From the NCBI RefSeq assembly GCF_003350205.1, contig NZ_QLLC01000006.1, positions 1 through 64,000 on the forward strand: a stretch of DNA of 64,000 bases. Direction: 5' to 3'. The stretch comes from Brevundimonas bullata (lineage in GTDB: Bacteria > Pseudomonadota > Alphaproteobacteria > Caulobacterales > Caulobacteraceae). A program made the translations under genes and the position numbers. Positions 5,348-48,333 of this stretch are shown piece by piece. Position 1 is the first letter of the stretch; each line of letters opens with the position of its first letter. The notes below the pieces were generated by a model that saw nothing but the letters and a program-made list of their open reading frames with translations, ran no database searches and had not been told where the DNA came from.

Positions 5348-7759
5348 GTGAAGATAGCCGAACGCTGGTTCGTTATGGCGGGCGTCGCCTTGCTTGGCGG
5401 CATCGCTCTGGCCGGGCTGGTCGTGGCCGTCTATGCGGCCTGGGTTCTGCATGACATGCCGGATGCGTCCGAGCTGGCGGACTATCGCCCGGCGACGGCC
5501 ACGCGCGTCTTTGCGGGCGACGGGACCCTGATAGGCGAATTCTCGGACGAACGCCGAATCTACGTCACCTATGACCAGGTGCCGGAGCAGGTGATCCACG
5601 CCTTCCTGGCCGCTGAAGACAGCCACTTCTTCCAGCACGGCGGCATAGACGTGTCCGGCATCGGCCGGGCCATGTTCAAGAACGTCTTCAATGTCGTGTC
5701 GGGGCGGCGGCTGGAGGGCGGTTCGACCATCACCCAACAGGTGGCCAAGAACGTCCTGCTGACCAACGAATCCAGCCTGAACCGCAAGCTGAAAGAGGCG
5801 ATTCTTTCGAGCCGTCTTGAAGCGACCCTGACCAAGGAGCAGATCCTTGAGCTGTATTTGAACGAGATCTACCTCGGCTATCGCTCCTATGGCGTGGCCT
5901 CGGCGGCCTACAACTATTTCGGCAAGTCGCTGAATCAGCTGACGCCGGATGAGGCGGCCTTCCTGGCGGCCCTGCCCAAGGGGCCGAACAACTATAATCC
6001 GAAACGCCACCCCGAGGCCGCCAAGGGCCGCCTCGACTGGGTTCTGGGCGAGATGGCCGACAACAAGTGGCTGTCGCAGGAAGAGTTGGCGACGGCCCTG
6101 GCGCGGCCGCTGAACACCCGTGCGGCGCCGCGTCGGGCCGAATACGCCGACGCCGACTTCTTCGTCGAGGAGGCGCGCCGTCGCGCCATCGGCCTGTTCG
6201 GTCAGGAAGAGGTCAACCGCGGCGGCTATTACCTGCGCACGACGCTGGACCCCAAGCTGCAGTCCGCCGCGCGCGATGCCCTGATGAACGGCCTGGAACG
6301 CTATGACCGCCGCCACGGCTGGCGCGGCGCCTGGGGCACGACCGATTTCGCACCGGGCTGGCAGGCCGCCGCCCTGAAGAAGAACACCCCGCCGGAACGC
6401 CGCACCTGGCAAGCCGCCGCCGTCGAAAGCGTCAGCGGCAACAATGTGCGCGTCCGTTCGGCCAAGGATGACCGCACGGGTTCGCTGATCGTATCCGACG
6501 CCGCCTGGGCCAACGCCAACCGTCCGCTGAAGCGCGGCGACCTGATCTTTGTCGAACCGCAAGGCGGCCAGTATGCGCTGAAGCAGGTGCCGGCGGTGAA
6601 CGGCGCCCTGGTGGCCATCGAGCCGCAGTCGGGCCGGGTCCTGGCCATGGTCGGCGGCTATTCCTACGCCCTGTCCAGCTTCAACCGCGCGACCCAGGCC
6701 AAGCGTCAGCCGGGCTCGGCCTACAAGCCCTTCGTCTATGCGGCGGCGCTGGAGGGGGACTTCAACCCGGCCAGCATCGTTCTGGACGCCCCGATCAGCT
6801 TCCCCGGCGGCGCCAACGGCGGTCGCTGGACGCCTGAGAACTACAGCCGTCAGTACTATGGCCCCCAGACCGTTCGTCGCGGGCTGGAGCTGTCGCGCAA
6901 CGTCATGACCGTGCGTCTGGCCCAGGCGGTAGGTATGAGGAACATCGTCGATCTGTCCAAGAAGATGGGCGTGGTCGACGACATGTCGCCTAACCTGGCT
7001 ATGTCGCTGGGGGCAGGGGAGACGACGCCCTATCGCATCACCGCCGCCTACGCCGCCTTCGTCAACGGCGGTCGCCGGGTCGATCCCTATTTGATCGAGA
7101 TGGTGCAGGACCGGAACGGCCAGACCATCCACCGCGCCGACCGTCGCCAGTGCCGCGACTGCGGCCGGGGCTTCAGCGGCCAGGAGTCGCCGCGTCTGCA
7201 GGATCGCGGGACCCAGGTCATCGACCCGATCACCGCCTATCAGATGAGCTCCATGCTGGAAGGCGTCATCCAGCGCGGCACCGGGGCCGGGGCGCGCAGC
7301 CTGGGTCCCTGGGTTGGCGGCAAGACCGGCACCACCAACGAATACCGCTCGGCCTGGTTCGTCGGCTTCTCCAGCGACATCGTGGTCGGCGTCTTCGTCG
7401 GCTTTGACGACAACCGCTCGCTCGGCGGCGGCGAGGCCGGTGCGGCGACCGCGGTGCCGATCTTCACCGACTTCATGACGGTCGCCCTGAAGGAACGCCC
7501 CGCGCGGCCCTTCGTGCGCCCCAAGAACGCCGTCTTCCGCACGGTCAACGGCATCGAGGAAGCCTTCCGTCCGGGCACTGAGCGTCAGATCCGTGAAGAG
7601 GCGCCGCGTCCGGTTCAGCCAGTGGGTCCGCAGAACTATAACGACGTGATCCGCCGCGAGCAGGAAGCTGCGCAGGCCCCTGCGGCCGCGGCGCCGGCGG
7701 TCGTCGCGCCCCCGCCGCCGAAGAAGCAGCCCGCCGAGGACTTGAGCGGGCTCTATTGA
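5348..7759 (+). CDS. mrcA: Penicillin-binding protein 1A, bifunctional transglycosylase/transpeptidase
   Basis: Class A PBP that polymerises and cross-links peptidoglycan. 803 residues from GTG 5348, chosen because GGAG lies six bases upstream; the frame is open back to TTG 5273 but lacks a ribosome site there. One membrane anchor at about 8-31 is followed by the GT51 glycosyltransferase domain with AAEDSHFFQHGGID (E90 catalytic) and EGGSTITQQVAKN, then an OB-like insert and the transpeptidase domain with the nucleophile in GSAYKPF (S457), LSRNVM as the SxN motif and GGKTGTTNEY (K659). The C-terminus is rich in Ala and Pro. An intrinsic terminator follows at 7783. Confidence 0.95.
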   Translation: MKIAERWFVMAGVALLGGIALAGLVVAVYAAWVLHDMPDASELADYRPATATRVFAGDGTLIGEFSDERRIYVTYDQVPEQVIHAFLAAEDSHFFQHGGIDVSGIGRAMFKNVFNVVSGRRLEGGSTITQQVAKNVLLTNESSLNRKLKEAILSSRLEATLTKEQILELYLNEIYLGYRSYGVASAAYNYFGKSLNQLTPDEAAFLAALPKGPNNYNPKRHPEAAKGRLDWVLGEMADNKWLSQEELATALARPLNTRAAPRRAEYADADFFVEEARRRAIGLFGQEEVNRGGYYLRTTLDPKLQSAARDALMNGLERYDRRHGWRGAWGTTDFAPGWQAAALKKNTPPERRTWQAAAVESVSGNNVRVRSAKDDRTGSLIVSDAAWANANRPLKRGDLIFVEPQGGQYALKQVPAVNGALVAIEPQSGRVLAMVGGYSYALSSFNRATQAKRQPGSAYKPFVYAAALEGDFNPASIVLDAPISFPGGANGGRWTPENYSRQYYGPQTVRRGLELSRNVMTVRLAQAVGMRNIVDLSKKMGVVDDMSPNLAMSLGAGETTPYRITAAYAAFVNGGRRVDPYLIEMVQDRNGQTIHRADRRQCRDCGRGFSGQESPRLQDRGTQVIDPITAYQMSSMLEGVIQRGTGAGARSLGPWVGGKTGTTNEYRSAWFVGFSSDIVVGVFVGFDDNRSLGGGEAGAATAVPIFTDFMTVALKERPARPFVRPKNAVFRTVNGIEEAFRPGTERQIREEAPRPVQPVGPQNYNDVIRREQEAAQAPAAAAPAVVAPPPPKKQPAEDLSGLY

Positions 7760-7782
7760 ACCTCTAGTTAGGCCCATTAATC

Positions 7783-7816
7783 CGGCGCGCCTGTTCGCAG
7801 GCGCGCCGTTTATTTT
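7783..7816 (+). terminator. Intrinsic terminator after mrcA
   Basis: Perfect 11-base stem (7783-7793 with 7798-7808) closed by a TTCG tetraloop and followed by TTTATTTT. It ends the dapA-smpB-mrcA unit before prfB. Confidence 0.9.
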
Positions 7817-7889
7817 CGTTGCTTTCCCTATCGGTCCGCACGCGGTGCGGCCCTGCTTAAGGGAAGGCGTTGTTTCGCAGGAGATTGCG

Positions 7890-9006
7890 ATGAGACCGGA
7901 TGTCGAGGCCATGAAGGCCGACATCGAGCAGAGCGCCGCTCTGCTCAGGAGGCGTCTTTGACTGGGATGTCTCGCTTCGAAAACTGGATGAGCTGAACGC
8001 TCGGGTCGAAGATCCGACCCTTTGGGACAACCCGGAACAGGCCCAGGCCGTCAGCCGCGATCGCTCGCGTCTGGAAGCCCAGATCAACAGCGTCCGTGAA
8101 CTGGAAAGCGCCCTGGAAGAGGGCGTCATGCTGGCTGAAATGGCCGATGAAGAGGGCGACGAGGCCACCCTCGAGGAGGCTCGTGAACAGCTGCGCGCCG
8201 TGAAGGAACGCGCCGCGCGCGCCGAACTGGAAGCCCTGCTGTCCGGCGAGGCCGACGGCAACGACGCCTATCTGGAAGTGAACTCCGGCGCCGGCGGCAC
8301 CGAGTCCAACGACTGGGCCGGGATGTTGCTGCGCATGTACTCACGCTGGGCCAAGGCCCACGGCTATGAGGTCACGATCGAGGCCATGGAAGAGGGTGAA
8401 CAGGCGGGGGTCAAGTCGGCCACCATCCTGATCGAGGGACCCAACGCCTATGGCTGGCTGAAGTCGGAATCGGGCGTGCACCGCCTGGTCCGCATCAGCC
8501 CCTATGACGCGGCGGCCAAGCGGCACACCAGCTTCGCCTCTATCGGCGTCTCGCCGGTCGTGGACGATACGATTGAGATCGACATCAACCCGTCGGACGT
8601 GCGCACCGACACCTATCGCGCGTCCGGCGCGGGCGGTCAGCACATCAACAAGACCGACTCGGCGGTGCGACTGACGCACATTCCGACCAATACGGTTGTG
8701 GCCTGTCAGGCCGGTCGTTCGCAGCACCAGAACCGCGACATGGCGTGGAAGATGCTGCGAGCCCGTCTGTACGAACTGGAGCTGCAGAAGCGCGAGGCGG
8801 CGGCTCAGGCCCTGGCGGACGCCAAGACGGACATCGGCTGGGGACACCAGATCCGATCCTACGTCCTGCAGCCCTATCAGATGGTGAAGGACCTGCGGAC
8901 CGAGGTCGAGACTTCGGATACGCAAGGGGTTCTGGACGGCGATCTGGACGCCTTCATGGGCGCCGCCCTGGCGGCCCGGGTCGGCGAGACCCGCGACGGG
9001 AACTAA
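7890..9006 (+). CDS. prfB: Peptide chain release factor 2, with programmed +1 frameshift
   Basis: RF2 recognises UGA and UAA and releases the peptide. The gene is split over two frames: ATG 7890 opens a 23-codon segment that runs to CTT TGA (7956-7961), and the protein continues in the +1 frame from GAC 7960 to TAA 9006, giving 371 residues. The internal Shine-Dalgarno AGGAGG (7947-7952) and CTTTGAC form the classic RF2 autoregulatory slippage site: low RF2 lets the UGA be skipped. The peptidyl-hydrolase motif [10 protein letters not shown] is present. The stop-recognition tripeptide reads SPY (in [10 protein letters not shown]) instead of SPF; I believe this is usual in alphaproteobacteria. 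Joined coordinates are needed for correct translation. Confidence 0.95.
7945..7962 (+). promoter_or_regulatory. RF2 programmed frameshift signal
   Basis: AGGAGG, three bases, then CTT TGA C. This is the same arrangement as in Escherichia coli prfB, where the SD-like element pairs with 16S rRNA and pushes the ribosome +1 at the in-frame UGA. Confidence 0.93.
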
Positions 9007-36592: not shown

Positions 36593-38934
36593 CGACGCCG
36601 ACCTGCGGCGTCTTCGGTCGCGCCCTGCGCGCCGAGATCGCGCATCTGGCCCGCAGCCGCTGGGACCTGATCCTGCTAATCGTCATACCGGTCGTGCTGA
36701 TGGTCGTGGTCGGGGCCATGCTGTTTCAGGGCGTGGTGCGTGACGTCCCAGTCGCCGTCGTCGATCAGGACCATTCCGCCTTCAGCCACGCCGCCATCCG
36801 TAACATGGAGGCCAGCCCCGGCGTGCGCGTGGTGGCCCAGCCCACCGATCTGGAGGCCGCATGGCCCCTGATGCGGTCGGGCCGGATCTACAGCCTCGCC
36901 TACATCCCGCGCGACGCCGAGAAGAACGCCTTTCGCCAGCCGGATGCCGCGATCGTCTATTACAACGGCGCCTTCCAGACCGTCGGTTCGCTCGCCGCCT
37001 CGGCCCAGACCACGGCCCTGACCGACGCCGCCGCTCCCCTGATCCTGGACCGCGCCCGAGCGCTGGGCGTCCCCGCCGCACGGCTGAAGACCCCCGCCGT
37101 TCAGGTGACTATCCTGGGCAATCCGCAGCTCAGTTTCGAGCTCTTCCTCGGCGGGCTGATCATACCCGGCGTCCTGCATCTGCTGATGGCCTGCGCCGCC
37201 GTCATGGGGGTGGGGCGAGAACTGCGCGGCGGTTCACTGAAGGACTGGTCAACGCGGATGGACGGGCGGCTGACAGCGGCGCTGGCGGGCAAGCTGACCC
37301 CCTATGTCCTAGTCTTCACCCTGTGGGGCGCGGTCTGGGTCGCCTGGCTGTGCGGCTGGCGCGGTTGGGGCGTCGAAGGCAGCCTGCTGATGCTGCTGGG
37401 CGGGTTGTTCGCCCTGATGGCGGCCACGGCCGGCGTCTCGGCCCTGCTGATCGCCCTGACCGGCGACATGGATGTCGGCTTCTCGGCCACGGCGGTCTAT
37501 GCGGGCTCGGCTATCGCCTTTTCCAACGGCACCCTGCCCCTACTGCACGGCCCGGCCTTCGCCCAGGTGTGGAGCGCCATCCTGCCCTTCACCCACTACT
37601 TGCGGCTGCAGAACGAGCAGATGGTGCTGGGCTCGGACGTTGCCGCCTCGCTGGGGCCGCTGATGATCCTGCTGGCTGTCGCGGTCGGGACCTTCGCCCT
37701 GTCCGTCCCCCTCGCCCATCGCCGCGCCCGACGCGCACCCAAGCCGGAAGACCTCAGCCTGCACCTCCCCGCCCGCAGTTTCGGCGGCGCCTTCGTTGGG
37801 ACCTTTGCCGGCATTTTCAAGCACCGCCCCCTGTCCAGCACCATTCTCTTGGCCGTGGTCGCCTACGCCTTCTATTATCCCATGGCCTATGTCGGTCAGA
37901 CGCCGGTCAAGCTGCCGGTCGCCGTCGTCGATCAGGATCATTCGGCCCTCAGTCGCCGCCTGGTGCAGGAAATGAACGCCACGCGCGCGCTGGACGCCTC
38001 GGTCGTCACCGCCTCGCCTTCCGAGGCCGAACGAATGCTGCGCAATGGCGAGGTCGACGCCGTCATGCACATCCCGGAAAAGTTCGAGTCGTCGCTGATC
38101 CACGGCGACGCCAAGGGGGTCGGCCTCTATCTGAACGGCGCCTATCTGGTTCGCGCCACGGCCATGGGCAAGGCGCTGGGCGGCGCGGCCGCCGCCGCGG
38201 CCGAAAAGGTCCTGACCCCGGCGATCGAGGCCACGCGCCTGCTGGAACGCGCGCCGACCGTCGTGCAGCGCCCGCTCTACAACACCACGGACGGCTACGG
38301 CAGCTATGCGGTCCCGGCGGTCAGCGCCATCATTCTGCAACAGACCCTGCTGCTGGGCGCCGCCCTGTTCGCCGGACTGCGTCGAGAGACGGGCGCGCAA
38401 CCGCTGTCGACCCGCAGCTTCCTCGGCCTGTGGGCCGCCCTGACCCTGATCGGCAGCGTCGCCAGCCTCTTCTATTTCGGCTTCGTCTTCTGGTTTCAGG
38501 ACTATCCGCGCATGGGCGACCTGCTTGGGATCATCCTCGCCGTGCCGGTCTTCGCCGCCAGCGTTTCGGCCTTAGGGCTGGCGATCGGCAGCCTGTTCGA
38601 CCGACATGAGCGCGCCATGCAGATCCTGGTCGGAACCTCGGTGCCGCTCTTCTTCCTCGGCGGCGCCGCCTGGCCCCTGTTCCTGATGCCTCAGCCCCTG
38701 GCCTGGCTGGCCCGCCTGTCGCCCTCGACCTCAGCCATTCAGGCCTTCGTCAAGTTGAACGCCGCGGGCGCCAGCGTCGCCGAGGTCGCGCCGGAGTTGC
38801 TGACGCTGGCCGTCCTAGCGGTGCTGTTTGGCGTCACGGCGTGGTGGCGTCTAACCCATCAGAGGCGCGCCGACCGTATGCGCTCAGCCTCGGCCGGCGT
38901 CAGCGGCAGGCGTGCGAAGACGTCGTTCAGATAG
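36589..38934 (+). CDS. Double-length ABC-2-type permease (two fused permease halves)
   Basis: 781 residues from GTG 36589. Two complete ABC-2 membrane units are joined in tandem: each starts with a membrane helix followed by an extracytoplasmic domain opening VAVVDQDHS (residues 55-63 and 444-452) and ends in five or so helices. The closest familiar design is the YhhJ/YbhR type that works with an ATPase, but no ATPase gene lies in this operon, and neither half contains Walker motifs. Export substrate unknown. The last 76 bases overlap the 3' end of the convergent amidohydrolase gene, and the C-terminal tail (RRADRMRSASAGVSGRRAK) is encoded by that overlap. Confidence 0.85.
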   Translation: MTTPTCGVFGRALRAEIAHLARSRWDLILLIVIPVVLMVVVGAMLFQGVVRDVPVAVVDQDHSAFSHAAIRNMEASPGVRVVAQPTDLEAAWPLMRSGRIYSLAYIPRDAEKNAFRQPDAAIVYYNGAFQTVGSLAASAQTTALTDAAAPLILDRARALGVPAARLKTPAVQVTILGNPQLSFELFLGGLIIPGVLHLLMACAAVMGVGRELRGGSLKDWSTRMDGRLTAALAGKLTPYVLVFTLWGAVWVAWLCGWRGWGVEGSLLMLLGGLFALMAATAGVSALLIALTGDMDVGFSATAVYAGSAIAFSNGTLPLLHGPAFAQVWSAILPFTHYLRLQNEQMVLGSDVAASLGPLMILLAVAVGTFALSVPLAHRRARRAPKPEDLSLHLPARSFGGAFVGTFAGIFKHRPLSSTILLAVVAYAFYYPMAYVGQTPVKLPVAVVDQDHSALSRRLVQEMNATRALDASVVTASPSEAERMLRNGEVDAVMHIPEKFESSLIHGDAKGVGLYLNGAYLVRATAMGKALGGAAAAAAEKVLTPAIEATRLLERAPTVVQRPLYNTTDGYGSYAVPAVSAIILQQTLLLGAALFAGLRRETGAQPLSTRSFLGLWAALTLIGSVASLFYFGFVFWFQDYPRMGDLLGIILAVPVFAASVSALGLAIGSLFDRHERAMQILVGTSVPLFFLGGAAWPLFLMPQPLAWLARLSPSTSAIQAFVKLNAAGASVAEVAPELLTLAVLAVLFGVTAWWRLTHQRRADRMRSASAGVSGRRAKTSFR

Positions 38935-39836
38935 GCGTTCAGTGGCCCCGAGAAAGGCCAGTCTGATCCGGCGACAAAGCGATCAATCCCGATGCGCCGC
39001 ATCAAGGCGACCAGCCGCAGCAGGTCAGCCTCCGAGGTTTCCGCGTCGAAGACCTGGGCGAGATCGAAGGACAGGCTCCGGCTCGTTTCCGGGTGCTCTT
39101 CGAGCGCCTCGGCGAAGGCCGTCATGGCGGCCCAGGTATTGTCATCCAACCCGCCCCAGCCCCCTGAATGAGCGATCATGACCGGCACGCCCTGAGCCTG
39201 AGGCAGCACCTGATCAAGGAAGACGCCGACATCCTTGGCCCCATAGTCCTCGGCTCGGGTCCGCATATGGATCATGATGGTCATGTCCCCCGCCGCCGCC
39301 GCGCGGAAGACCCGAGCCAGCGCCGCCACATCGTCGGGATCGCGCAGATTAACGTCGGAATTGGTCAGGTGCAGCTTCACCCCTGCGGCAAAGGGATCAT
39401 CCGCCCAGCGCGCGATTTCTGGGAGGGCTGTCGGCGTCAGCGGGTTGACGCTGACGAAGGCGCTCAGTCGGTCCGGATGGCGGCGCGCCAGATCGACCGT
39501 GAAATCATTGGCTGCTCGGATCAGGTCGGGCGCGTCAGGGTGCGCGGGAACCATCATCGGGCTCTCGGCCAGATAGGCGGTCGACATCAAGAAGGCCCGC
39601 CTCACCCCCGCCGCATCCATGTCGGTCAGCAGGTCATCGACGGTCAGCGGTCGGGTGAAGACCTCGGGACAGGCGCTGATCCTCCCCAGGCTGCCGCAAT
39701 AGGCCGGCAGGAAGTCCAGGATCGCCGGGGAATGGACATGGACATGATGATCCGTGGCCACCGGCTCAGCCATGGCGGGGCCAGAGGCAAGCATCATCGT
39801 GGACGCCGCCAGCGCGGCGGCGAGGTTCAAACGCAT
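38859..39836 (-). CDS. Exported amidohydrolase-family protein (amidohydrolase 2 type)
   Basis: 325 residues with a signal peptide (about 1-23, GPAMA). TIM-barrel metal-dependent hydrolase: HxH in TDHHVHVHSPA, lysine in GVKLHLTNSD, histidine in MIHMRTR and in MIAHSGGWGG, and the closing aspartate in FVAGSDWPFSG. Amide, lactone and acid-decarboxylating members are known; the substrate here is open. It follows the S9 peptidase gene, but an intrinsic terminator (39851-39882) lies between, so it may be expressed only by read-through or from its own promoter. Confidence 0.82.
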   Translation of the reverse strand: MRLNLAAALAASTMMLASGPAMAEPVATDHHVHVHSPAILDFLPAYCGSLGRISACPEVFTRPLTVDDLLTDMDAAGVRRAFLMSTAYLAESPMMVPAHPDAPDLIRAANDFTVDLARRHPDRLSAFVSVNPLTPTALPEIARWADDPFAAGVKLHLTNSDVNLRDPDDVAALARVFRAAAAGDMTIMIHMRTRAEDYGAKDVGVFLDQVLPQAQGVPVMIAHSGGWGGLDDNTWAAMTAFAEALEEHPETSRSLSFDLAQVFDAETSEADLLRLVALMRRIGIDRFVAGSDWPFSGPLNAYLNDVFARLPLTPAEAERIRSARL

Positions 39837-39850
39837 CTCGAAATTCTCGG

Positions 39851-39882
39851 AAAGAAAAAGGGGGCCGGTCAGACCGGCCCCC
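39851..39882 (-). terminator. Intrinsic terminator downstream of the S9 peptidase gene
   Basis: Stem GGGGGCCGGT/ACCGGCCCCC (39860-39869 with 39873-39882) around CAG; on the minus strand CTTTTTCTTT follows. Confidence 0.85.
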
Positions 39883-39897
39883 GTAAACGCGTCGCGA

Positions 39898-41838
39898 TCA
39901 GCGCGGCGTATCGGCCAGAAGCGTCTGTTTCCAGAACTGCAGACTGGTCCAGAAGTAGTAGTCCTCGTTTTCCTTCTTGTGGAAACCGTGGCCCTCGTTC
40001 TGCGCGAGAAGGTGCCAGGCCGTGCCGCCGTTGGCGCGGACGGCGGCGACGATCTGATCGGCTTCCGAGGCCGGCACGCGGGGGTCGTTGCCGCCCGTCG
40101 CCACCAGCAGGGGGATGGTGATCTTGTCGACGCTGGTCAGCGGCGAGATGGCCTGTAGCTGCGCGCGTTGAGCCGGATCACGCTCGTCGCCGTATTCCAC
40201 ACGACGCAGGTCGCGACGATAGGACTGGGTGTTCTCCAGGAAGGTCACGAAGTTGGAGATGGCGACATAGCAGTTCGCCCCCTTCAACCGATCACTGTAG
40301 TGGACCGCCGTGGCGTAACACATATAGCCGCCGTAGGAGACGCCGGTGACCGCGAAACGGTCGGCGTCCAGGCCGGGGTTCTTCTCCAGATTGTCGAGGA
40401 AGGCGCCGATGTCCTTCACCGAATTCTCGCGCTGGAACGGTCCGTTGTCGAGGTTGACGAACCGCGTGCCATAGCCCGACGAACCGCGCACGTTGGGGAA
40501 GAAGATCGCCACGCCCAGTTCGTTCAGCAGATAGTTCTGCGAGCCGAGGAAGTCAGGGCGCGTCTGGCCTTCCGGGCCGCCGTGGATGTCGATGATCAGC
40601 GGACGCTTGCCCGGGAACCTGGTCGCGTCCGGCTGATAGAGGAAGCCGGAGACCGTCTCGCCGTCAAAGCTCTTCACCTCGACCAGGGTCGGCTCGACGT
40701 TGATCGAGGGGTCCAGTCCGCCGGTCTCGCTGTGCGTCCACTGGGTCACGGCCAGGGTCTTGGGGTCGACCGAGAAGGCGTCGCCCGCCACACGCGCGGA
40801 CGACAGGCTGAGGCCGATCGCGCCCCAGGGGGCGATGTCGATGGTCGCGCCTATGCTGTAGGGAATGACGCCGTTGGGCAGGCCGTCCACCGCACGCACC
40901 GCACCGCTCGCCACATCCAGAACACGCAGCTTGGACGCGCCGGCCTCGTTGACGGCATAGGCGATGAAGCTGCCGTCCGGGGCGATGGCGTAGTCGCTGA
41001 CGTCCCAGCGGGCCTCAGTCGACACCGGGCGGAAGTCCCCGCCCTCGATGCGGCCTAGACGCAGGAAGTCGGACCCCTTGTTAGACGCCGCCCAGACGGC
41101 GCCGTTCGGCGCATACTGCGGATCGACATAGGAAACCTGGGCCTCGGGATCGGTCAGCGGCGTCATGCGGCCGCTGGCGATGTCCAGCTCATAGACCGCC
41201 GCATGGTTGATCGACATCCGGTTCAGCACCAGTGCCCTGGACCCGTCCGCCGAGAAGTCAGAGATGTTCCAGCCGCCCCCCGACACCTGGGCGACCAGGC
41301 GGTCGGTCGCGGGATCGCGCGGATCGACGACATAGAGGTCCATGTCCGCACCGTTGCGACGCGAGGAGGCGTAGCCGACACGCTTGCCGTCCCGGCTCCA
41401 GGCGCCGAACCAGTTGCGGCTCTTGCCGTCGGTCACGCGCGTCAGACGACCGTTGGCCAGCGTATAGAGTTGATAGAACTCGTCCCCGCCGTTGTCCTTC
41501 TGGACCAGCAGGACATCGCCAGAGGGCGACGGGGCGCCGGCCATGACCGGCTCGGCCTCAAAGCTGATCTGCCGACGGGCGCCGCCGGGGGCGCTGACCA
41601 CGTGGATCTGGTCCGTGGCGCCGAAGCGGGTCTTGATCAGCATCGACCGATCGGCCGCGTCCCAGCCGACAAAGGCGGCGCGGCGGCTCTGAAGATAGGG
41701 CAAGGTGGCCGCCGCCAGGTCGTCGGGAACGGCAGGCAGACCATCGGCGACGACGGCGGCGGGCTTGGGGATTTCGGCGACGGCAGGCGCGGCGCACAGG
41801 GCCAGGCTCAGCGCCATCAGGGAAACGCGAGAAATCAT
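39898..41838 (-). CDS. Exported prolyl-oligopeptidase-family (S9) serine peptidase
   Basis: 646 residues from ATG 41838 (GTG 41856 would add six residues). A signal peptide ends at about 22 (APAVAE). An N-terminal seven-bladed propeller (WD40-like PD40 repeats such as FGAWSRDGKRVGYASSR) precedes the alpha/beta-hydrolase domain. The catalytic triad is visible: S501 in VTGVSYGGYMC, D585 in ATGGNDPRVPA, H617 in NEGHGFHKKENE. Such enzymes remove short peptides from oligopeptides, often after proline. It lies 107 bases downstream of a TonB-dependent receptor gene, a pairing typical for peptide scavenging in Caulobacterales. Confidence 0.93.
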   Translation of the reverse strand: MISRVSLMALSLALCAAPAVAEIPKPAAVVADGLPAVPDDLAAATLPYLQSRRAAFVGWDAADRSMLIKTRFGATDQIHVVSAPGGARRQISFEAEPVMAGAPSPSGDVLLVQKDNGGDEFYQLYTLANGRLTRVTDGKSRNWFGAWSRDGKRVGYASSRRNGADMDLYVVDPRDPATDRLVAQVSGGGWNISDFSADGSRALVLNRMSINHAAVYELDIASGRMTPLTDPEAQVSYVDPQYAPNGAVWAASNKGSDFLRLGRIEGGDFRPVSTEARWDVSDYAIAPDGSFIAYAVNEAGASKLRVLDVASGAVRAVDGLPNGVIPYSIGATIDIAPWGAIGLSLSSARVAGDAFSVDPKTLAVTQWTHSETGGLDPSINVEPTLVEVKSFDGETVSGFLYQPDATRFPGKRPLIIDIHGGPEGQTRPDFLGSQNYLLNELGVAIFFPNVRGSSGYGTRFVNLDNGPFQRENSVKDIGAFLDNLEKNPGLDADRFAVTGVSYGGYMCYATAVHYSDRLKGANCYVAISNFVTFLENTQSYRRDLRRVEYGDERDPAQRAQLQAISPLTSVDKITIPLLVATGGNDPRVPASEADQIVAAVRANGGTAWHLLAQNEGHGFHKKENEDYYFWTSLQFWKQTLLADTPR

Positions 41839-41883
41839 AGGGCAACACCCTCTCACAAGAGACCCTCAATCAAGAGGAAGGGT

Positions 41884-41927
41884 GTCGCCGGCTCCATATC
41901 GCGAACGATGGGGGAGGAGCCGGCGAC
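41884..41927 (-). repeat. Intercistronic 12-base perfect stem-loop
   Basis: GTCGCCGGCTCC (41884-41895) pairs with GGAGCCGGCGAC (41916-41927) across a 20-base loop, between the receptor and peptidase genes. No T-run follows on the minus strand, so it is more likely to act in mRNA stability or partial termination than as a full terminator. Confidence 0.65.
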
Positions 41928-41945
41928 GGGAACACGGCGCCAGAA

Positions 41946-44654
41946 CTAAAAGCGGTACCGTGCTCCAACCGTGACGTAGCGGCCGATCACATCGTAATAG
42001 GGCGAGAAGAGCGAACCCTCCGGCGGATCACGATCGAACAGATTGGTCGCATTGGCGTAGAGTTCCACGCCGTCCGCGCCGAAGCGCGACAGGTCGGCCG
42101 TCACGCCGAGATCGAAGTAGGTGTAGGCGTCGATCTCGTTGTTCACGATCTTGATGGTCGAGTTGTATTGACCATCCGAGATGTAGCGAGCGCGCAGGTT
42201 GGCGCTGAAGACCTCGCCCTTCCAGCCTGCCGAGGCGTTGAGGCGCAGCTCAGGCACGCCCAGACCGAAGGCATAGCCCTGCGAGCCCACATATTGGATC
42301 TCGGTCACGCCATCATTGGTGGTCAGGCTGTTGGTCCAAGTCCCGACCAGGCGCAGGTTGATGCGGCCCGAGGCATCGGCGAAGAAGCGACCCAGCGGCG
42401 CGGTGTAGGACACCTCGGCGTCAACACCATCGGTCTTGTACTCGGCCAGATTGAGGAAGGTGGACATGGTGCGAACCAGATCACCTGCAGCATCACGTTC
42501 AACCTTGTCGCACAGAGCCTTGTTGCCGTTGAAGCAACGCGTCACCAGGTCCTGCGGCGCGATGGTGGTGATCACGTCGTCGATCTTGATGCTGTAATAG
42601 TCGATCGACATATTCAGACCCGGCACGGACGGCGGCGAATAGGTGAAGCCCAGCGTCAAGGTGTCCGCTGTTTCCGGCGTCAGGTTCGGGTTGCCGCCCC
42701 CATTGTTCAGGACATAGACCGTGGCGTTTTTGACCGGGTCGTTGATGTTGTTGTAGCCCGTGGTGGTCTGAGTATAGAGCTCGCTCAGGTTGGCCGAACG
42801 GATGTCACGCGACTGGGTGATACGACCACGGAAGCCAGGGAAGAACTCATTGGTGGCGCCCACCTTCCACGACCAGATCGATCCGGTAGTGTCATATTCC
42901 GAAACCCGGACGGCGGCGTTGAACTGCAGGTCATTGAAGACCGGCACATCCTTGACCAGCGGCAGCAGGACTTCAGCGAACGCTTCCTTGACCGCAAACT
43001 CACCGGACATGGCCGAGAAGCTGAACGAACGGAAAGCCTTGGCGGCGTCCAGTTCACCCACGGTCTGGTCGATGGACTCCTTGCGGGCCTCGACACCGAA
43101 GGCGACAGAAACATCACCGGCCGGCAGGCTGAAGGGCTCGCCGCGCATGCTGAAGCCCACGCTGTCCAGCTTGGTCGTCGACCGCTGCATCGGCGTGCCG
43201 GTGACATAGTCAACTGCAGCCTGCGACGGGGCGCCCAGGCCGAACAGGTTGATCGGCACGCAGGTGCTGTTCGGATTGGTCAGGGCGTCACGACAGATCG
43301 CCTGGCCCGTGGCCGGATTGATCACCGAGTCCACGGCCTTGGCCCACTCATTCTTCAGAATGAAGCCTGGGGTGTCGATGTCGTTGTTGAACTCGCCGTG
43401 GCTGTAATAGGCGCCCCAGCGCCATTTGCTGCCGAGCTCGCCGTCCAGGGCCAGAGTGGCCTGGGTCGTGACCCGCTCAAAGTCGATGGTGGGGAAGTTG
43501 ATGTCCGAGTTGAAACGACCCATCGTCAGGGTTGTTTCGCCCGCCGCATCCATGGCCGCGCCCACGGCGCCCGGCAGGAAGGCGTTGTCGCGCTTGACCA
43601 CCAGGTTGCCACGGTCGTGATCACCGAACCAGGTATAGGTGTTCCACATCTTCGAGTGGCGCACGTCTGCGGTGAAGCGCAGGTTGTCCTGGAGGTCATA
43701 GGTGAAGCTGGCCAGGGCGGCGTAGCGTTGCTGCGGCGTCACCAGCGGGCTGATGTCGTCGTTGGACGGACCTTCGCCGCCAACGCTCGAGGTGCCGACA
43801 ACCTTGCCATAGTCAAAGTCGCGCAGCGAACCGTCCGGGTTGAAGGCCTTGCCCTTGAGCACGCCCGACATGATCAGGCCGCCATAGGCTGCGTTCGAGA
43901 AGCCGACATCCGGCACATTGACGAAGTTACCCGTGCCGTCGCCGGTCGAAACTTGCGACCAACGACCGACATTGGGACGCGAGGCGCGCGGGATGACACC
44001 CTCGTTGTCCAGGTACTCGCCGCCGATCACCACGTGACCGCGACCATCCAGAATGCTGCGGCCATAGGCCCCTTCAAAGCGGACCTGCTCAGCGTCGTCA
44101 TAGGAAGAAACGCCATACTCGGCGCCCAGCTTGCCGCCCTCGAACTTGCGGTCCAGGGAGACGTTGACCACACCGGCGACAGCGCCCGAACCCCAGGCTG
44201 CCGAGGCCCCGCCAGTCACCACGTCCACACCCTTGATCAGCACGGTCGGGATCGAGTTCAGGTCGTTCTCGCTCGAAACACGACGACCGTCGATCAGGAC
44301 CAGGGTGCGGCTGACGCCCAGGCCGCGCAGGTCAACCGGCGCACCGCCCGCCCCCGTATTGGTGCTGGTGGTCTGGGCCGACTGGGTGGCCCGAAACTGC
44401 GGCATGTCGTTCAGCGCCGCCGCCACATTCAGGCGCGCCCCCACCGACAAGTCTTCCGCCGTCAGGCGCACGGTCGGGGTCGGGGCCGTGAAGCCGGCGC
44501 GATCGATACGCGATGCGGTGACGACGATTTCGTCGATGGTGGTGGGGCTGCCCGCGGGCTCTTCGTCCTGCGACTGGGCGATTGCGCCGCCGGCGCATGC
44601 CAGCAGGGCCATGGCGCTACAGCAGCCGGTCAGATGGAGATGAAATCTAGACAA
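41946..44654 (-). CDS. TonB-dependent outer-membrane receptor
   Basis: 902 residues from TTG 44654, which has AGGA six bases upstream and gives a proper signal peptide (about 1-27, GGAIAQ). A TonB-box-like DEIVVTASR is at about 41-49, then a plug domain (PQFRATQS, GVDVVTGGASAAWGSGAVAG) and the 22-strand barrel, ending in the aromatic YVTVGARYRF. The closest look is to the large receptors of Caulobacter/Sphingomonas type that take up peptides or glycans. The gene sits behind a tandem glycine riboswitch and before an S9 peptidase gene. The ligand is not determined. Confidence 0.93.
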   Translation of the reverse strand: MSRFHLHLTGCCSAMALLACAGGAIAQSQDEEPAGSPTTIDEIVVTASRIDRAGFTAPTPTVRLTAEDLSVGARLNVAAALNDMPQFRATQSAQTTSTNTGAGGAPVDLRGLGVSRTLVLIDGRRVSSENDLNSIPTVLIKGVDVVTGGASAAWGSGAVAGVVNVSLDRKFEGGKLGAEYGVSSYDDAEQVRFEGAYGRSILDGRGHVVIGGEYLDNEGVIPRASRPNVGRWSQVSTGDGTGNFVNVPDVGFSNAAYGGLIMSGVLKGKAFNPDGSLRDFDYGKVVGTSSVGGEGPSNDDISPLVTPQQRYAALASFTYDLQDNLRFTADVRHSKMWNTYTWFGDHDRGNLVVKRDNAFLPGAVGAAMDAAGETTLTMGRFNSDINFPTIDFERVTTQATLALDGELGSKWRWGAYYSHGEFNNDIDTPGFILKNEWAKAVDSVINPATGQAICRDALTNPNSTCVPINLFGLGAPSQAAVDYVTGTPMQRSTTKLDSVGFSMRGEPFSLPAGDVSVAFGVEARKESIDQTVGELDAAKAFRSFSFSAMSGEFAVKEAFAEVLLPLVKDVPVFNDLQFNAAVRVSEYDTTGSIWSWKVGATNEFFPGFRGRITQSRDIRSANLSELYTQTTTGYNNINDPVKNATVYVLNNGGGNPNLTPETADTLTLGFTYSPPSVPGLNMSIDYYSIKIDDVITTIAPQDLVTRCFNGNKALCDKVERDAAGDLVRTMSTFLNLAEYKTDGVDAEVSYTAPLGRFFADASGRINLRLVGTWTNSLTTNDGVTEIQYVGSQGYAFGLGVPELRLNASAGWKGEVFSANLRARYISDGQYNSTIKIVNNEIDAYTYFDLGVTADLSRFGADGVELYANATNLFDRDPPEGSLFSPYYDVIGRYVTVGARYRF

Positions 44655-44670
44655 GACAAATCCTACTCAT
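44647..44670 (-). other. Seven-codon upstream ORF overlapping the receptor start
   Basis: ATG 44670 opens MSRICLV and stops at TAG 44649-44647, running over the TTG start of the receptor gene in another frame. No good ribosome site precedes it. It may be chance, or a second layer of translational control between the riboswitch and the receptor. Confidence 0.3.
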
Positions 44671-44738
44671 GCGACGACGGCGCCCCTCCCCAGGGAAGCC
44701 CGGTGACTGACGCTCTGACGGCGTCGTTTGATAGCCCC

Positions 44739-44918
44739 CGCTGTCATCGGGCCTGAGAGTTTCGGACCGGCGGGTCCTTGCTTCTTCGGCGAGGACGCGC
44801 CCCCGGCGGGTGCGCCCTTCTCTCCAGCGTTCATCCTGCAGCACGGTCCGTTTGCCTGAGCGTTTCCGGGGCGGTTGCGCCTTCGGCGTCGATGCGAGAT
44901 CGAACTCTCCCGCGCTGC
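44739..44918 (-). promoter_or_regulatory. Tandem glycine riboswitch (two aptamers)
   Basis: Aptamer 1 (44918-44838) has P1 GCAGCGCG/CGTGCTGC, GGGAGAG, CGCCGAAGGCGCAA and AAACGCTCAGGCAAACGGAC. Aptamer 2 (44829-44739) has CGCTGGAGAG, CGCCGAAGAAGCAAGG, GAAACTCTCAGGC and closes with CAGCG. These are the conserved core blocks of the glycine class, in the standard order, with a short linker. Bacteria with this design use it mostly before gcvT; here the downstream gene is a TonB-dependent receptor. No T-rich terminator is seen in 44655-44738, so control of translation start or Rho-dependent termination is more likely than an intrinsic terminator. Confidence 0.95.
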
Positions 44919-44947
44919 ATATCCAGTAAGATCGGACCGCACGTCGC

Positions 44948-44953
44948 TGTCAA
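44948..44953 (-). promoter_or_regulatory. Likely -35 element of the riboswitch promoter
   Basis: TTGACA on the minus strand, 30 bases before aptamer 1; TTACTG after 18 bases is a weak candidate -10. Confidence 0.4.
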
Positions 44954-45132: not shown

Positions 45133-46215
45133 TCATGGCGCTTTTGGATCAGCCGGCGCGCGCGGCGCATCCCCCATGGCCAGTTTCCAGCGGTCAAGCA
45201 GACGTTCGCGACGCACGCGATCCAGATTGGCCAGAAGCCCAGGCCCCACGCGAATGGGCCGGGCGCCCGGCGAAGTTGCTCGCACCGTATCCCCGATGTC
45301 GTCGCGTACAGGCCGTATGCCGAGAACAGCAATGCCTCTCTGCCCTTCTCGCGACAGCAGATAATCGAGGAACAACCTCGCCGTATTCGGATGCGGCGCC
45401 GCACGCGGAATGAAGGCCACTCGGGATACCGACAGGTGATAATCGGAGGGCGTAACCAGCGCCACATCGGGATGGCGCAACGCCCAGCTCTCTCCGAACG
45501 ACTGGTTCATATTATAGGCCAGCACCATCTTGCCCGAGGCGAGTTGCCCCATCATCCGCTGGCCCGACGTGTCCAGCCGCGGACGACTGCGACCCAGGGC
45601 CTCCATCAATTGCCACGCATCAGGATAGATCTGCACGTCCGCCGACAGGTGCATAAGCGCCACCCCGCTGCGTTCGGCGTCGTAGACAGTCGTTCGTCCG
45701 GCGAAAAGCTGGGGGTGGGCTTCCAGCAGGCGCAGCAGTTCCGCATGGCTCCCAGGCACGGCGTTCGCCGGCAGCAGGCGACGATTATAGGCGAAGACAA
45801 TCGGTTCTGCAGTGATGCCGAATCCCTGATCGCGCCACACGGACCCGTCGGGCATGGCCCGCCGATGCGGCGAGCGATAGGCTTGGGCATAGCCGTCGTT
45901 GATCAACTTGATCTGCAGATCCATGGCTGAACTCCAGACCAGATCCGCCTTGGGCCGATTATCCTGCGTCTCGGCCACCACCCGTTCGGCGATGAGGGTG
46001 GAGTTCATGTCCTCCACCCTGACGGTGATGTCCGGGTATCGGCGACGGAAGTCCTCGATCAGAGGCTCCATCAGGCTGGTATTGGCGTATATTGTCAGCT
46101 CGCCTTCCTTTTGCGCCGCCCGTCGCACACTCGCCGACGTCGCCCCGTCCAGCGACTCGCCGCAGCCCGCCAGCAGGCAAAGCCCCGCCATCAGCCCCTT
46201 CAACAGCCAGGCCAT
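45133..46215 (-). CDS. Solute-binding lipoprotein (type 2 periplasmic binding fold)
   Basis: 360 residues from ATG 46215; the longer frame runs into the divergent regulator gene. Lipobox LLAGCG (lipidated C18). The fold is that of AfuA/PgtC-like binding proteins: EGELTIYANTSLMEPLIEDF, DLVWSSAMDLQIKLINDGYA, FGITAEPIVFAYNRRLLP and LFLDYLLSREGQRGIAVLG. No permease or ATPase gene is near; instead a response regulator and histidine kinase are transcribed divergently, as with PgtC, which serves as a sensor component. Ligand unknown. Confidence 0.85.
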   Translation of the reverse strand: MAWLLKGLMAGLCLLAGCGESLDGATSASVRRAAQKEGELTIYANTSLMEPLIEDFRRRYPDITVRVEDMNSTLIAERVVAETQDNRPKADLVWSSAMDLQIKLINDGYAQAYRSPHRRAMPDGSVWRDQGFGITAEPIVFAYNRRLLPANAVPGSHAELLRLLEAHPQLFAGRTTVYDAERSGVALMHLSADVQIYPDAWQLMEALGRSRPRLDTSGQRMMGQLASGKMVLAYNMNQSFGESWALRHPDVALVTPSDYHLSVSRVAFIPRAAPHPNTARLFLDYLLSREGQRGIAVLGIRPVRDDIGDTVRATSPGARPIRVGPGLLANLDRVRRERLLDRWKLAMGDAPRAPADPKAP

Positions 46216-46294
46216 CTTCACCGCCGCTGGTTTCCCGCTATGGTCACGGTATGCCCTCTCATCCCCCGCCCCCGCCCGGACGATTCCCGACGCC

Positions 46295-46957
46295 ATGAGA
46301 GTCCTCGTTGTTGAAGATGACAAGGCGCTGCAACACTCCCTGACCGCCAGCCTTCGCGGCGCCGGGATGCAGACCCGCTGCACTCATCTGGGTGAAGAGG
46401 CCCTGATGCTCGAGGCCGTCGGCGATTTCGACGCCCTGATTCTGGACATCGGCCTACCTGACATTGACGGCTTTGAAATCCTGACGGCCCTTCGCGGGCG
46501 CGGCTCGACGACCCCGATCCTGATGTTGACCGCGCGCGACGCCGTCAGCGACCGTGTCGCGGGGCTGGAACTGGGCGCCGACGACTATCTGGTGAAGCCT
46601 TTCGCTCCGCCCGAGCTGGTGGCGCGCGTTCGCGCCATCGCCCGACGCAACAGGGGCCAGGCCGGCGGGGCCGTGACGATCGGCGCCCTGACCTGTGACT
46701 GGGAAGCGGGGCGGGCGCGTGTCGGCGACCGCGAACTGGACCTGCGTCCGCGCGAATGGGCCGCCCTGCGCGTCCTGATTTCCCGCGTGGGCCAGGTCGA
46801 GGAGCGCGATATGCTCGCCGCCGAAGTCTTCCATCAGGATGAAGCCGCCTCCCTCAACGCGCTCGAGGTACATGTCGGACGCCTGCGTCGTAAGCTCCAG
46901 CCGGACGGCCCCGGCGTCACCAATATTCGTGGTCGCGGCTATCGGCTGGACCCGTGA
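46295..46957 (+). CDS. OmpR/PhoB-family response regulator (TctD/QseB-like)
   Basis: 220 residues. Receiver domain with phosphorylation site D51 in LILDIGLPDIDGFE, LMLTARD and YLVKPFAPPEL (conserved Lys), then a winged-helix DNA-binding domain (LDLRPREWAALRVLISRVGQ, LEVHVGRLRRKL, NIRGRGYRLDP). ATG 46295 is 79 bases from the start of the divergent binding-protein gene. Its stop overlaps the kinase start by four bases. Confidence 0.94.
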   Translation: MRVLVVEDDKALQHSLTASLRGAGMQTRCTHLGEEALMLEAVGDFDALILDIGLPDIDGFEILTALRGRGSTTPILMLTARDAVSDRVAGLELGADDYLVKPFAPPELVARVRAIARRNRGQAGGAVTIGALTCDWEAGRARVGDRELDLRPREWAALRVLISRVGQVEERDMLAAEVFHQDEAASLNALEVHVGRLRRKLQPDGPGVTNIRGRGYRLDP

Positions 46958-48333
46958 CCGCACCCAGGTCGCCTCGTCCTCACAGCCTGCTCAAAAGGCT
47001 GTTCATCGCCCAGATCGCCCCCCTCAGCCTGGTGGCGGTCGTGCTTCTGGTGGCCGGGTCCTGGACGGCGCACCGCGTCGTAGAGCGCACGTCCGATCGC
47101 CTGCTGGCGGGCGCCACTCAGGCCATCCTTGAAACCGTATCCTTCAGCGACGCCCAGGTCACTGTCGATGTATCGCCCTGGTCCCTGGCCCTGCTGGACA
47201 GCCCGGAGCGCGATGCGGTCTTCTATAGCGTGCGCGAGGGCGACCGCCTGATTACCGGCTACGACGAACTCCCCATCCTGAGCGCCACAGGCGTCGACCA
47301 GCCCAGATTCGCCAATCTCACGGTTCGAGGTCTGCCGGTGCGGATGGCGCAACAATCGGTCGAAATTCCCGGCCAACCCTCCCCGGTCATCGTCTCGGTG
47401 GCTCAGAGCCTGGATTCGCGCCAGGCCAGCGTCCGTGAGTTGAACCTCAGCCTGCTGTTGCTGCCGGGGCTTCTGGTCGTGCTCGCGGCCCTCCTGATCT
47501 GGCCCGCTATCCAATGGGGTCTCTATTCCCTGAAGCGGTTAACGCGAGAACTGGCGTCACGCTCTCAAGCCGGCGCCACCGACTTTGCCCCTGCGCCGAT
47601 CAACCTGGCGCCGCGAGAGCTGGCCTCGGCGCTCTCGGCCTTCAACACCTTGCTGGCGAGCCTGGAGAGATCCACCTCGGGCATGCAGCGTTTCTCGGCC
47701 GACGCCTCGCATCAGCTCAGGACGCCGCTCACCGTGGTCGCCGCCAACCTGGATCTTCTGGCGGGCTCACGCCGTCCCTGGTCCAAGGCGGATCGGCGCC
47801 TCTTGAGCGATTCCAAGGACGCCATCGCCGCCATGTCCCGGCTGATCAATCAGCTTCTGTCCACGGCGCGGGCCGACAGCGCTCCCGGACTGAACCAGGC
47901 GGACATCGGGCGGACCGTGCGCATCGCGGTGGAAAGCCTGCGCTCCAGCCTCCCCTGCGACGCCGTGCGTATGCGGCTGCCTGACGGCGTCGTCGCGGTC
48001 CAAGGCGATGAGAACCTGATCGTCGAACAGATGATCAACCTGCTGGACAACGCCTCACGCTACGGCGCGCCGCCTGTCATCGTTCATGTCGCCCGACGTG
48101 AAGGGCAGGTCCGTATCACCGTCTGGGACCACGGCCCCGGCGTCGATGACGCAGAACTGCCTCGCCTGCCCGAACGATTCTTCCGTAGCCGCACGGCGCC
48201 GCGGGCGACCGGATCAGGCCTGGGCCTGTCGATTGTCGCCAGCATGGCCAAGGCCCAGGGCGCCGAATTCCGCCTCGCCAATCGCGCTCGGCGGCCCGGA
48301 CTGGTCGCGACCTTGACCTATCGCTCAGCCTAG
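46954..48333 (+). CDS. Sensor histidine kinase (TctE-like)
   Basis: 459 residues from GTG 46954 (overlap GTGA with the regulator). Two membrane helices (about 17-37 and 165-186) flank a periplasmic 2CSK_N-type domain; the kinase core has the phospho-acceptor H253 in DASHQLRTPLT, the N box in INLLDNASRYG, and G boxes VWDHGPGVDD and GSGLGLSIVASM. Together with the binding lipoprotein it probably forms a three-part sensor. Confidence 0.93.
   Translation: MTAPRSPRPHSLLKRLFIAQIAPLSLVAVVLLVAGSWTAHRVVERTSDRLLAGATQAILETVSFSDAQVTVDVSPWSLALLDSPERDAVFYSVREGDRLITGYDELPILSATGVDQPRFANLTVRGLPVRMAQQSVEIPGQPSPVIVSVAQSLDSRQASVRELNLSLLLLPGLLVVLAALLIWPAIQWGLYSLKRLTRELASRSQAGATDFAPAPINLAPRELASALSAFNTLLASLERSTSGMQRFSADASHQLRTPLTVVAANLDLLAGSRRPWSKADRRLLSDSKDAIAAMSRLINQLLSTARADSAPGLNQADIGRTVRIAVESLRSSLPCDAVRMRLPDGVVAVQGDENLIVEQMINLLDNASRYGAPPVIVHVARREGQVRITVWDHGPGVDDAELPRLPERFFRSRTAPRATGSGLGLSIVASMAKAQGAEFRLANRARRPGLVATLTYRSA

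Follow-up and report, generated by a model that had tools for sequence, protein, structure and literature searches.

Some known glycine riboswitches precede transporter genes, and the transporters are presumably of the inner-membrane glycine/alanine type. The catalogued glycine regulon covers glycine metabolism, glycine transport and serine metabolism, and the terms "tonb" and "outer membrane" are absent from the main text of that catalogue (PMC3766115). Here, we analyze the first 64,000 nucleotides of contig NZ_QLLC01000006.1 from Brevundimonas bullata (the window), in which a tandem glycine-class riboswitch on the minus strand precedes genes for a TonB-dependent receptor (TBDR), which we call TBDR-A, and a predicted exported S9 peptidase. 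Both genes fall outside the catalogued regulon classes (PMC3766115). An original prediction made from the sequence knew of no described system of this type, and we likewise found no description of a glycine riboswitch before a TBDR or an exported peptidase in the accessible open-licence literature, supplementary tables excluded. As the best overall explanation, we favor, with some reserve, a glycine-sensing switch that governs a TBDR-S9 scavenging unit. Control of TBDR-A and the S9 gene by the switch is, taken by itself, very probable.

A covariance search with the Rfam model RF00504, whose gathering cut-off is 32 bits, places aptamer 1 at 44834..44922 on the minus strand (72.1 bits, E = 4.4e-13, whole window) and aptamer 2 at 44731..44837 on the same strand (51.3 bits, E = 1.6e-9, whole-genome search). 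The aptamers share 4 bases, so that the tandem extends from 44922 to 44731. This confirms the two-aptamer glycine riboswitch of the original prediction, which had located it at 44739-44918; the tandem stands, and its 3' end lies slightly farther out, at about 44731. Searches of the window keep the best of overlapping clan matches, and one match, which we take to be aptamer 2, was omitted there. A missing second aptamer was considered and rejected, because the whole-genome search recovers it. The same genome contains one further tandem glycine switch, located before gcvT (PF01571, E = 1.2e-83).

Aptamer 1 bears the marks of a maintained RNA structure. In the Brevundimonas alignment (nine rows, six of them distinct, and 21 pairs), 126 of 126 cells are paired, and four pairs in P1 and P2 have changes on both sides. 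On four of five measures of covariation, none of 500 shuffles scored as high, and on the fifth 194 of 500 did. Among 13 rows of the Caulobacter and Phenylobacterium type, a single base is bulged out of P1, and two P2 pairs show A.C, the first in five rows and the second in one. These counts of compensatory changes cover aptamer 1, while aptamer 2 was aligned only. The aptamer-1 core is invariant over 22 TBDR-A leaders and nearly identical to the corresponding core of the gcvT leaders. We conclude that the window RNA is, as far as its sequence tells, a tandem glycine-class riboswitch, for which ligand binding is predicted.

The first gene after the tandem, TBDR-A (41946..44654, minus strand; 902 residues with a TTG start), contains a Plug domain (PF07715, E = 1.1e-16) and a barrel domain (PF00593, E = 1.1e-28), and its N-terminus looks like a signal peptide by eye. 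The S9 peptidase gene follows on the same strand (39898..41856; 652 residues; PF00326, 108.5 bits, E = 4.4e-31), and its product also has a signal-peptide-like N-terminus. With the Plug, barrel and S9 domains all above cut-off, the expectation that the switch is followed by an outer-membrane receptor and an exported prolyl-oligopeptidase was borne out. The nearest solved chain to the S9 protein is 5l8s, an amino acyl peptidase (E = 9.7e-41), with which its GxSxGG, D and H motifs align; we take these to be the Ser/Asp/His catalytic motifs. The S9 product is thus a member of the S9 prolyl oligopeptidase family and is predicted to be exported. Between the two genes lies a weak terminator-like site of five pairs (41878-41863).

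The association of switch and receptor is stable among close relatives. In the genus of the window, 59 of 61 genomes have RF00504 matches, and five of the 61 (G000, G008, G020, G027 and G047) carry a second tandem before TBDR-A. Both tandems of another genome, G032, precede gcvT, as do the 17 other tandem loci examined (L005, L010-L025), judging by translations; at L005, the gene after the tandem is GCV_T by Pfam. Across the Caulobacteraceae sample, RF00504 was found in 241 of 249 genomes and TBDR-A in 19 (E <= 1e-200). All 17 genomes whose TBDR-A is at least 69% identical have a same-strand tandem ~70-170 nt ahead of it, including G008, where two contigs each hold a part of the receptor. Neither of the two distant homologues (51% identity; G231 and G290) has a switch. 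Genomes with TBDR-A also have at least four aptamers in 17 of 19 cases, compared to 2 of 230 without it (p = 3e-22, a value that overstates independence since the genomes are related); the two are G102, with gcvT and serine dehydratase, and G195.

A receptor scan of genome contigs gave 24 loci, 16 of them from Caulobacteraceae (Brevundimonas, Caulobacter and Phenylobacterium) and eight from outside the family (Novosphingobium, Sphingomonas, Stenotrophomonas, Luteimonas, Rudaea and a Lysobacterales bin). The tandem is readable upstream of TBDR-A in the window and in all 16 Caulobacteraceae loci, a set that overlaps the 17 genomes above, so that the two counts are not additive. In none of the eight outside orthologues does the kilobase upstream of the receptor contain both core motifs, and a comparison of coordinates puts the RF00504 matches of these records beyond the examined stretches, with those of L045 on a different contig. 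Wherever the contig of a Caulobacteraceae locus extends far enough, the S9 gene follows the receptor (15/15). It is also beside the receptor in six of the eight outside loci; L045 is without it, and the contig of L038 ends 556 bases after the receptor. Because these six loci have the peptidase and no switch, the receptor-peptidase unit is wider than the switch. One locus, L037, has an in-frame stop and was left out of the protein alignment.

Sequence motifs around the tandem suggest how the switch might act. A putative promoter (44925..44953, minus strand) consists of TTGACA at 44953-44948 and GATCTTACT at 44933-44925, and it ends ~7 nt before aptamer 1; a sigma-70 consensus scan of the window did not call it. 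The motif ATCTTACT is present near aptamer 1 in 9/9 Brevundimonas rows and 0/8 others, and TTTGAC occurs upstream of aptamer 1 in 13 of 17 rows. Since these conserved promoter-like motifs stand close to aptamer 1, transcription likely starts before the switch. The probable expression platform is the leader at 44655..44730 (minus strand), where CCC and the purine-rich stretch GGGGAGGGG upstream of the start codon (GGGAGGGG in L029) pair in a hairpin. When excised and folded, this 27-28 nt hairpin forms in 9/9 Brevundimonas leaders; the tenth, L074, was left out because the pattern failed. A terminator scan of the window, which found eight sites where 3.7 were expected, detected no intrinsic terminator on the minus strand between aptamer 2 and the receptor.

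The TTG start of the receptor is conserved. An in-frame ATG lies 15 nt upstream of it in 8/8 Brevundimonas relatives (window 44670-44652); in the window, the upstream ATG is 16 nt from the TTG and out of frame, leaving TTG as the only in-frame start. We also considered CUGUC, an element of Caulobacter leaders with complementarity to aptamer-2 P1, and dropped it, as it is not constant by eye.

A survey of glycine switches before TBDRs, of the kind that the original prediction had called for, located one before 17/17 close TBDR-A orthologues and also before three further receptors, TBDR-B, TBDR-C and TBDR-D. We examined 23 further family switches, of which 17, all from genus g22, precede TBDR-B, a different receptor of ~800 residues. 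TBDR-B is found in 52 of 249 family genomes; 19 of 21 orthologues with at least 77% identity have the switch, and an M19 membrane dipeptidase lies beside the receptor in nine of the 17 loci. TBDR-C accounts for two loci, in genus g6, both with a penicillin-amidase-family protein next. The remaining four consist of a serine dehydratase (L068), gcvT (L070), a weak match near gcvT (L067) and L080, which is described below. A search of the class Alphaproteobacteria found RF00504 in 243 of 387 genomes, and we examined 60 loci: 34 from 16 genomes with at least three aptamers, and 26 single-tandem loci that come from the best-scoring listed matches and are a non-random sample. The switch precedes gcvT in 41 of these, serine dehydratase in eight, a PhyH-family gene with serine dehydratase behind it in one, an FAD-dependent (DAO) oxidase in four, a glutamine-synthetase-like gene in three and malate synthase in two. 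In one locus, from another alphaproteobacterial family, it precedes TBDR-D, with a tricorn protease next.

Mutual identity among TBDR-A to TBDR-D does not exceed ~32% over stretches of at least 200 residues. Altogether, the switch stands before four or more different receptors, in two or more lineages of its own (A; B with C) plus D, and the hydrolases beside these receptors belong to the S9, M19, penicillin-amidase and tricorn families. Because the switch recurs before three further TBDRs with other hydrolases, a role in peptide or amide scavenging is favored, and the substrate of TBDR-A is probably a peptide or amide. A scavenging regulon of this kind is a well-founded hypothesis, and we lean, if narrowly, toward the broader view that alphaproteobacterial glycine riboswitches define a so far overlooked regulon by which peptides or amides are scavenged at the outer membrane, with cytoplasmic glycine as the readout of protein-derived food. 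The link of switch and receptor holds up and reaches farther than the original prediction had it. The same prediction read the locus as a system for scavenging glycine-containing peptides, a story that is plausible on sequence grounds; the stable link of switch, TBDR and S9 and its recurrence speak for it, and the part given to a downstream amidohydrolase is doubtful.

We propose that the TBDR-S9 transcript begins at the promoter just before aptamer 1, as the conserved motifs suggest, and that the two aptamers, assigned to their class by covariance score, would sense cytoplasmic glycine. Their ligand state would be relayed to the short leader, where the purine-rich stretch ahead of the start codon is paired in the hairpin. 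As the leader contains no intrinsic terminator, control is probably translational. Through the receptor, peptides or other amides would enter the periplasm and be cut there by the S9 peptidase, and the products would reach the cytoplasm via other transporters. Rising glycine would then announce protein-derived food and switch scavenging on. We moderately prefer this ON sign, because switches in the class mostly precede genes for the use of glycine and serine. A further hint is that conservation is higher in aptamer 1 than in aptamer 2 (0.793/0.738), as has been described for switches of the gcv type (PMC6944388).

Several observations pull against this account, in its sign as well as in its target. 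Aptamer 1 exceeds aptamer 2 in conservation in every set, TBDR-A, TBDR-B and gcvT, so the hint of an ON switch is perhaps a habit of the lineage. In one TBDR-A leader, L074 (G202), the outer pair of aptamer-2 P1 is mismatched. Where glycine switches precede uptake genes, glycine lowers expression (PMC6944388), and this precedent would fit an OFF switch, in which sufficient glycine shuts down the receptor and peptidase and the operon serves as a supply line in shortage. The hairpin over GGGGAGGGG in the Brevundimonas leaders may suit such a switch too. When the energy model is made to form or to avoid aptamer-2 P1, access to positions -15..-4 barely changes in 17 leaders; with start-site access near-identical in the two cases, the platform mechanism is not derivable, and ON versus OFF is not decidable, from folding. 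Most other switch targets in the examined class loci are catabolic, and the conservation of aptamer 1 is like that of the gcv type, which makes the OFF sign the less probable of the two.

Observations against the target concern both TBDR-A and TBDR-B. In eight of the 17 TBDR-B loci, the examined stretch has no M19 gene. TBDR-B leaders are also long, with ~260-400 nt from aptamer to start, and control of this receptor is less direct for that reason. Two of its 21 close orthologues (G273 and G201) lack the switch, as do all 14 homologues examined, of 32 listed, with at most 76% identity. As for TBDR-A, its substrate is not readable from sequence or fold: the AlphaFold model (mean pLDDT 65.9, moderate) matches PfeA, BtuB and Cir in the PDB, a generic result of siderophore and B12 receptors. 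With these as its closest folds, TBDR-A might import a non-peptide, such as a siderophore-like compound, an aromatic or an organic acid, and glycine would then be merely a nutritional signal. Two neighbors are compatible with such a substrate. The downstream amidohydrolase is weakly related to resorcylate and carboxyvanillate decarboxylases, and a solute-binding protein adjoins the unit in 16/16 Caulobacteraceae loci and 0/8 outside. We nonetheless consider a non-peptide unlikely, since the S9 peptidase is the constant partner of the receptor, also in 6/8 loci outside Caulobacteraceae, and each of the three other TBDRs behind glycine switches was found with a hydrolase as neighbor, be it a dipeptidase, a tricorn protease or an enzyme of an amidase family. 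A peptide or amide thus remains our preferred substrate.

The history of the switch was approached with a maximum-likelihood tree of 71 tandem leaders, from which L074 and L068 were left out because the end pattern failed; TBDR-D and the other class loci are outside this tree. The 22 TBDR-A leaders form one clade (98/96) apart from the gcvT leaders, and the Brevundimonas gcvT leaders form another (98/95). The 17 TBDR-B leaders are one clade (100/98), and TBDR-B and TBDR-C together are one clade (100/98). These sequences are short and the deeper branches are weak, and constraining TBDR-A and Brevundimonas gcvT to a single clade was not rejected (p = 0.35). Because the TBDR-A leaders are a single clade, their switch was most likely inherited with the operon and not re-taken from each local gcvT leader.

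Kinship with the gcvT leader, in RNA family and in the nearly identical aptamer-1 core, could also mean that the TBDR-A switch is a leftover, which arose by duplication of a gcvT leader and has ceased to control the receptor. G195 may be such a case, with a degraded leader copy and a gcvT-like remnant before another TBDR. For TBDR-A we think this very improbable, given the invariant aptamer-1 core in 22 leaders, the compensatory P1 and P2 changes in Brevundimonas, the separate clade, the promoter-like motifs kept in most rows and the recurrence with other TBDRs. At the G195 locus, L080 (G195:C158), the degraded switch and the remnant (37% over 35 residues, E = 0.005) stand before a fifth TBDR (5674-8565), and an intact tandem and gcvT (56%) follow it; the genome is 83% complete. 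L080 is possibly a snapshot of a receptor coming under a gcvT leader, or a leftover, and is not counted among the recurrent receptor cases.

Other details of the class loci may be recorded here. By eye, aptamer 1 of TBDR-B and TBDR-C (L050-L066, L069 and L071) has a double change in P3, from GCC/GGC to GCU/AGC, and in TBDR-B the core GCAA has become GAAA; it is possible that these changes alter affinity. The glutamine-synthetase-like gene (PF00120) follows the tandem in three genomes of g52 (L106, L109 and L110). The DAO oxidases behind the switch (L095, L102, L113 and L114) perhaps serve glycine or D-amino-acid oxidation.

Downstream of the S9 gene, a terminator was predicted before the amidohydrolase gene, and there is indeed a terminator-like GC-rich hairpin and T-run at 39860..39882 on the minus strand (39882-39860 as transcribed), with 10 pairs, nine of them GC, a loop of 3 and the tail TTTTTCTTTC. 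The Amidohydro_2 family gene follows at 38859..39836 on the same strand (PF04909, E = 4.5e-16). It is present in 10 of the 15 Caulobacteraceae loci whose contig extends far enough. The predicted three-gene system therefore holds for TBDR and S9, a unit to which the switch is attached in 17/17 close orthologues, and not for the amidohydrolase, whose membership in the regulated unit is doubtful because the hairpin precedes it and because it is absent from 5/15 orthologous loci.

Upstream of the tandem, positions 45133-48333 encode a solute-binding protein (minus strand) and, next to it on the plus strand, a response regulator together with a 2CSK_N sensor kinase. The solute-binding protein, conserved at the Caulobacteraceae loci as noted above, is reversed in L030 and L044; the regulator and kinase were checked in the window only. 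The set resembles, we presume, the TctDE-citrate or carboxylate-sensing sets, and it is possible that it gives the TBDR-A unit a second, transcription-level input.

If the proposed regulon is correct, a recurrent link of TBDRs with peptidases or amidases would extend glycine control to the cell surface. It would also give a substrate hint for receptors without an assigned ligand, and a natural test case for tandem architecture and switch sign in scavenging. Our results suggest that, in this case, the bacterium couples the scavenging of outside peptides to its own glycine level.

Among described systems, the lasso peptide isopeptidases of the Atxe2 family (NF033523) are found in TBDR neighborhoods. 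The alpha/beta hydrolase part of the S9 protein matches them weakly, and this reading of the gene was rejected at 34.7 bits against a cut-off of 400. The gcvT tandem glycine riboswitch (RF00504) has the same aptamer class and tandem layout as the TBDR-A switch, whereas the latter belongs to a separate clade, has a different downstream leader and targets an outer-membrane receptor and an exported peptidase. Other glycine riboswitches likewise place uptake genes under glycine control (PMC6944388). Those transporters, presumably of the glycine/alanine type, carry a free amino acid across the inner membrane, and here TonB-dependent import across the outer membrane would be joined to hydrolysis. 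The cobalamin riboswitches before GOX_RS06220 and ZMO0979 also pair a metabolite riboswitch with a TBDR; there, the ligand class is B12 and no peptidase partner is named (PMC5756330, PMC5770649). Compared to these systems, the TBDR-A locus represents a riboswitch class that is known, before targets of a class that is new and recurs.

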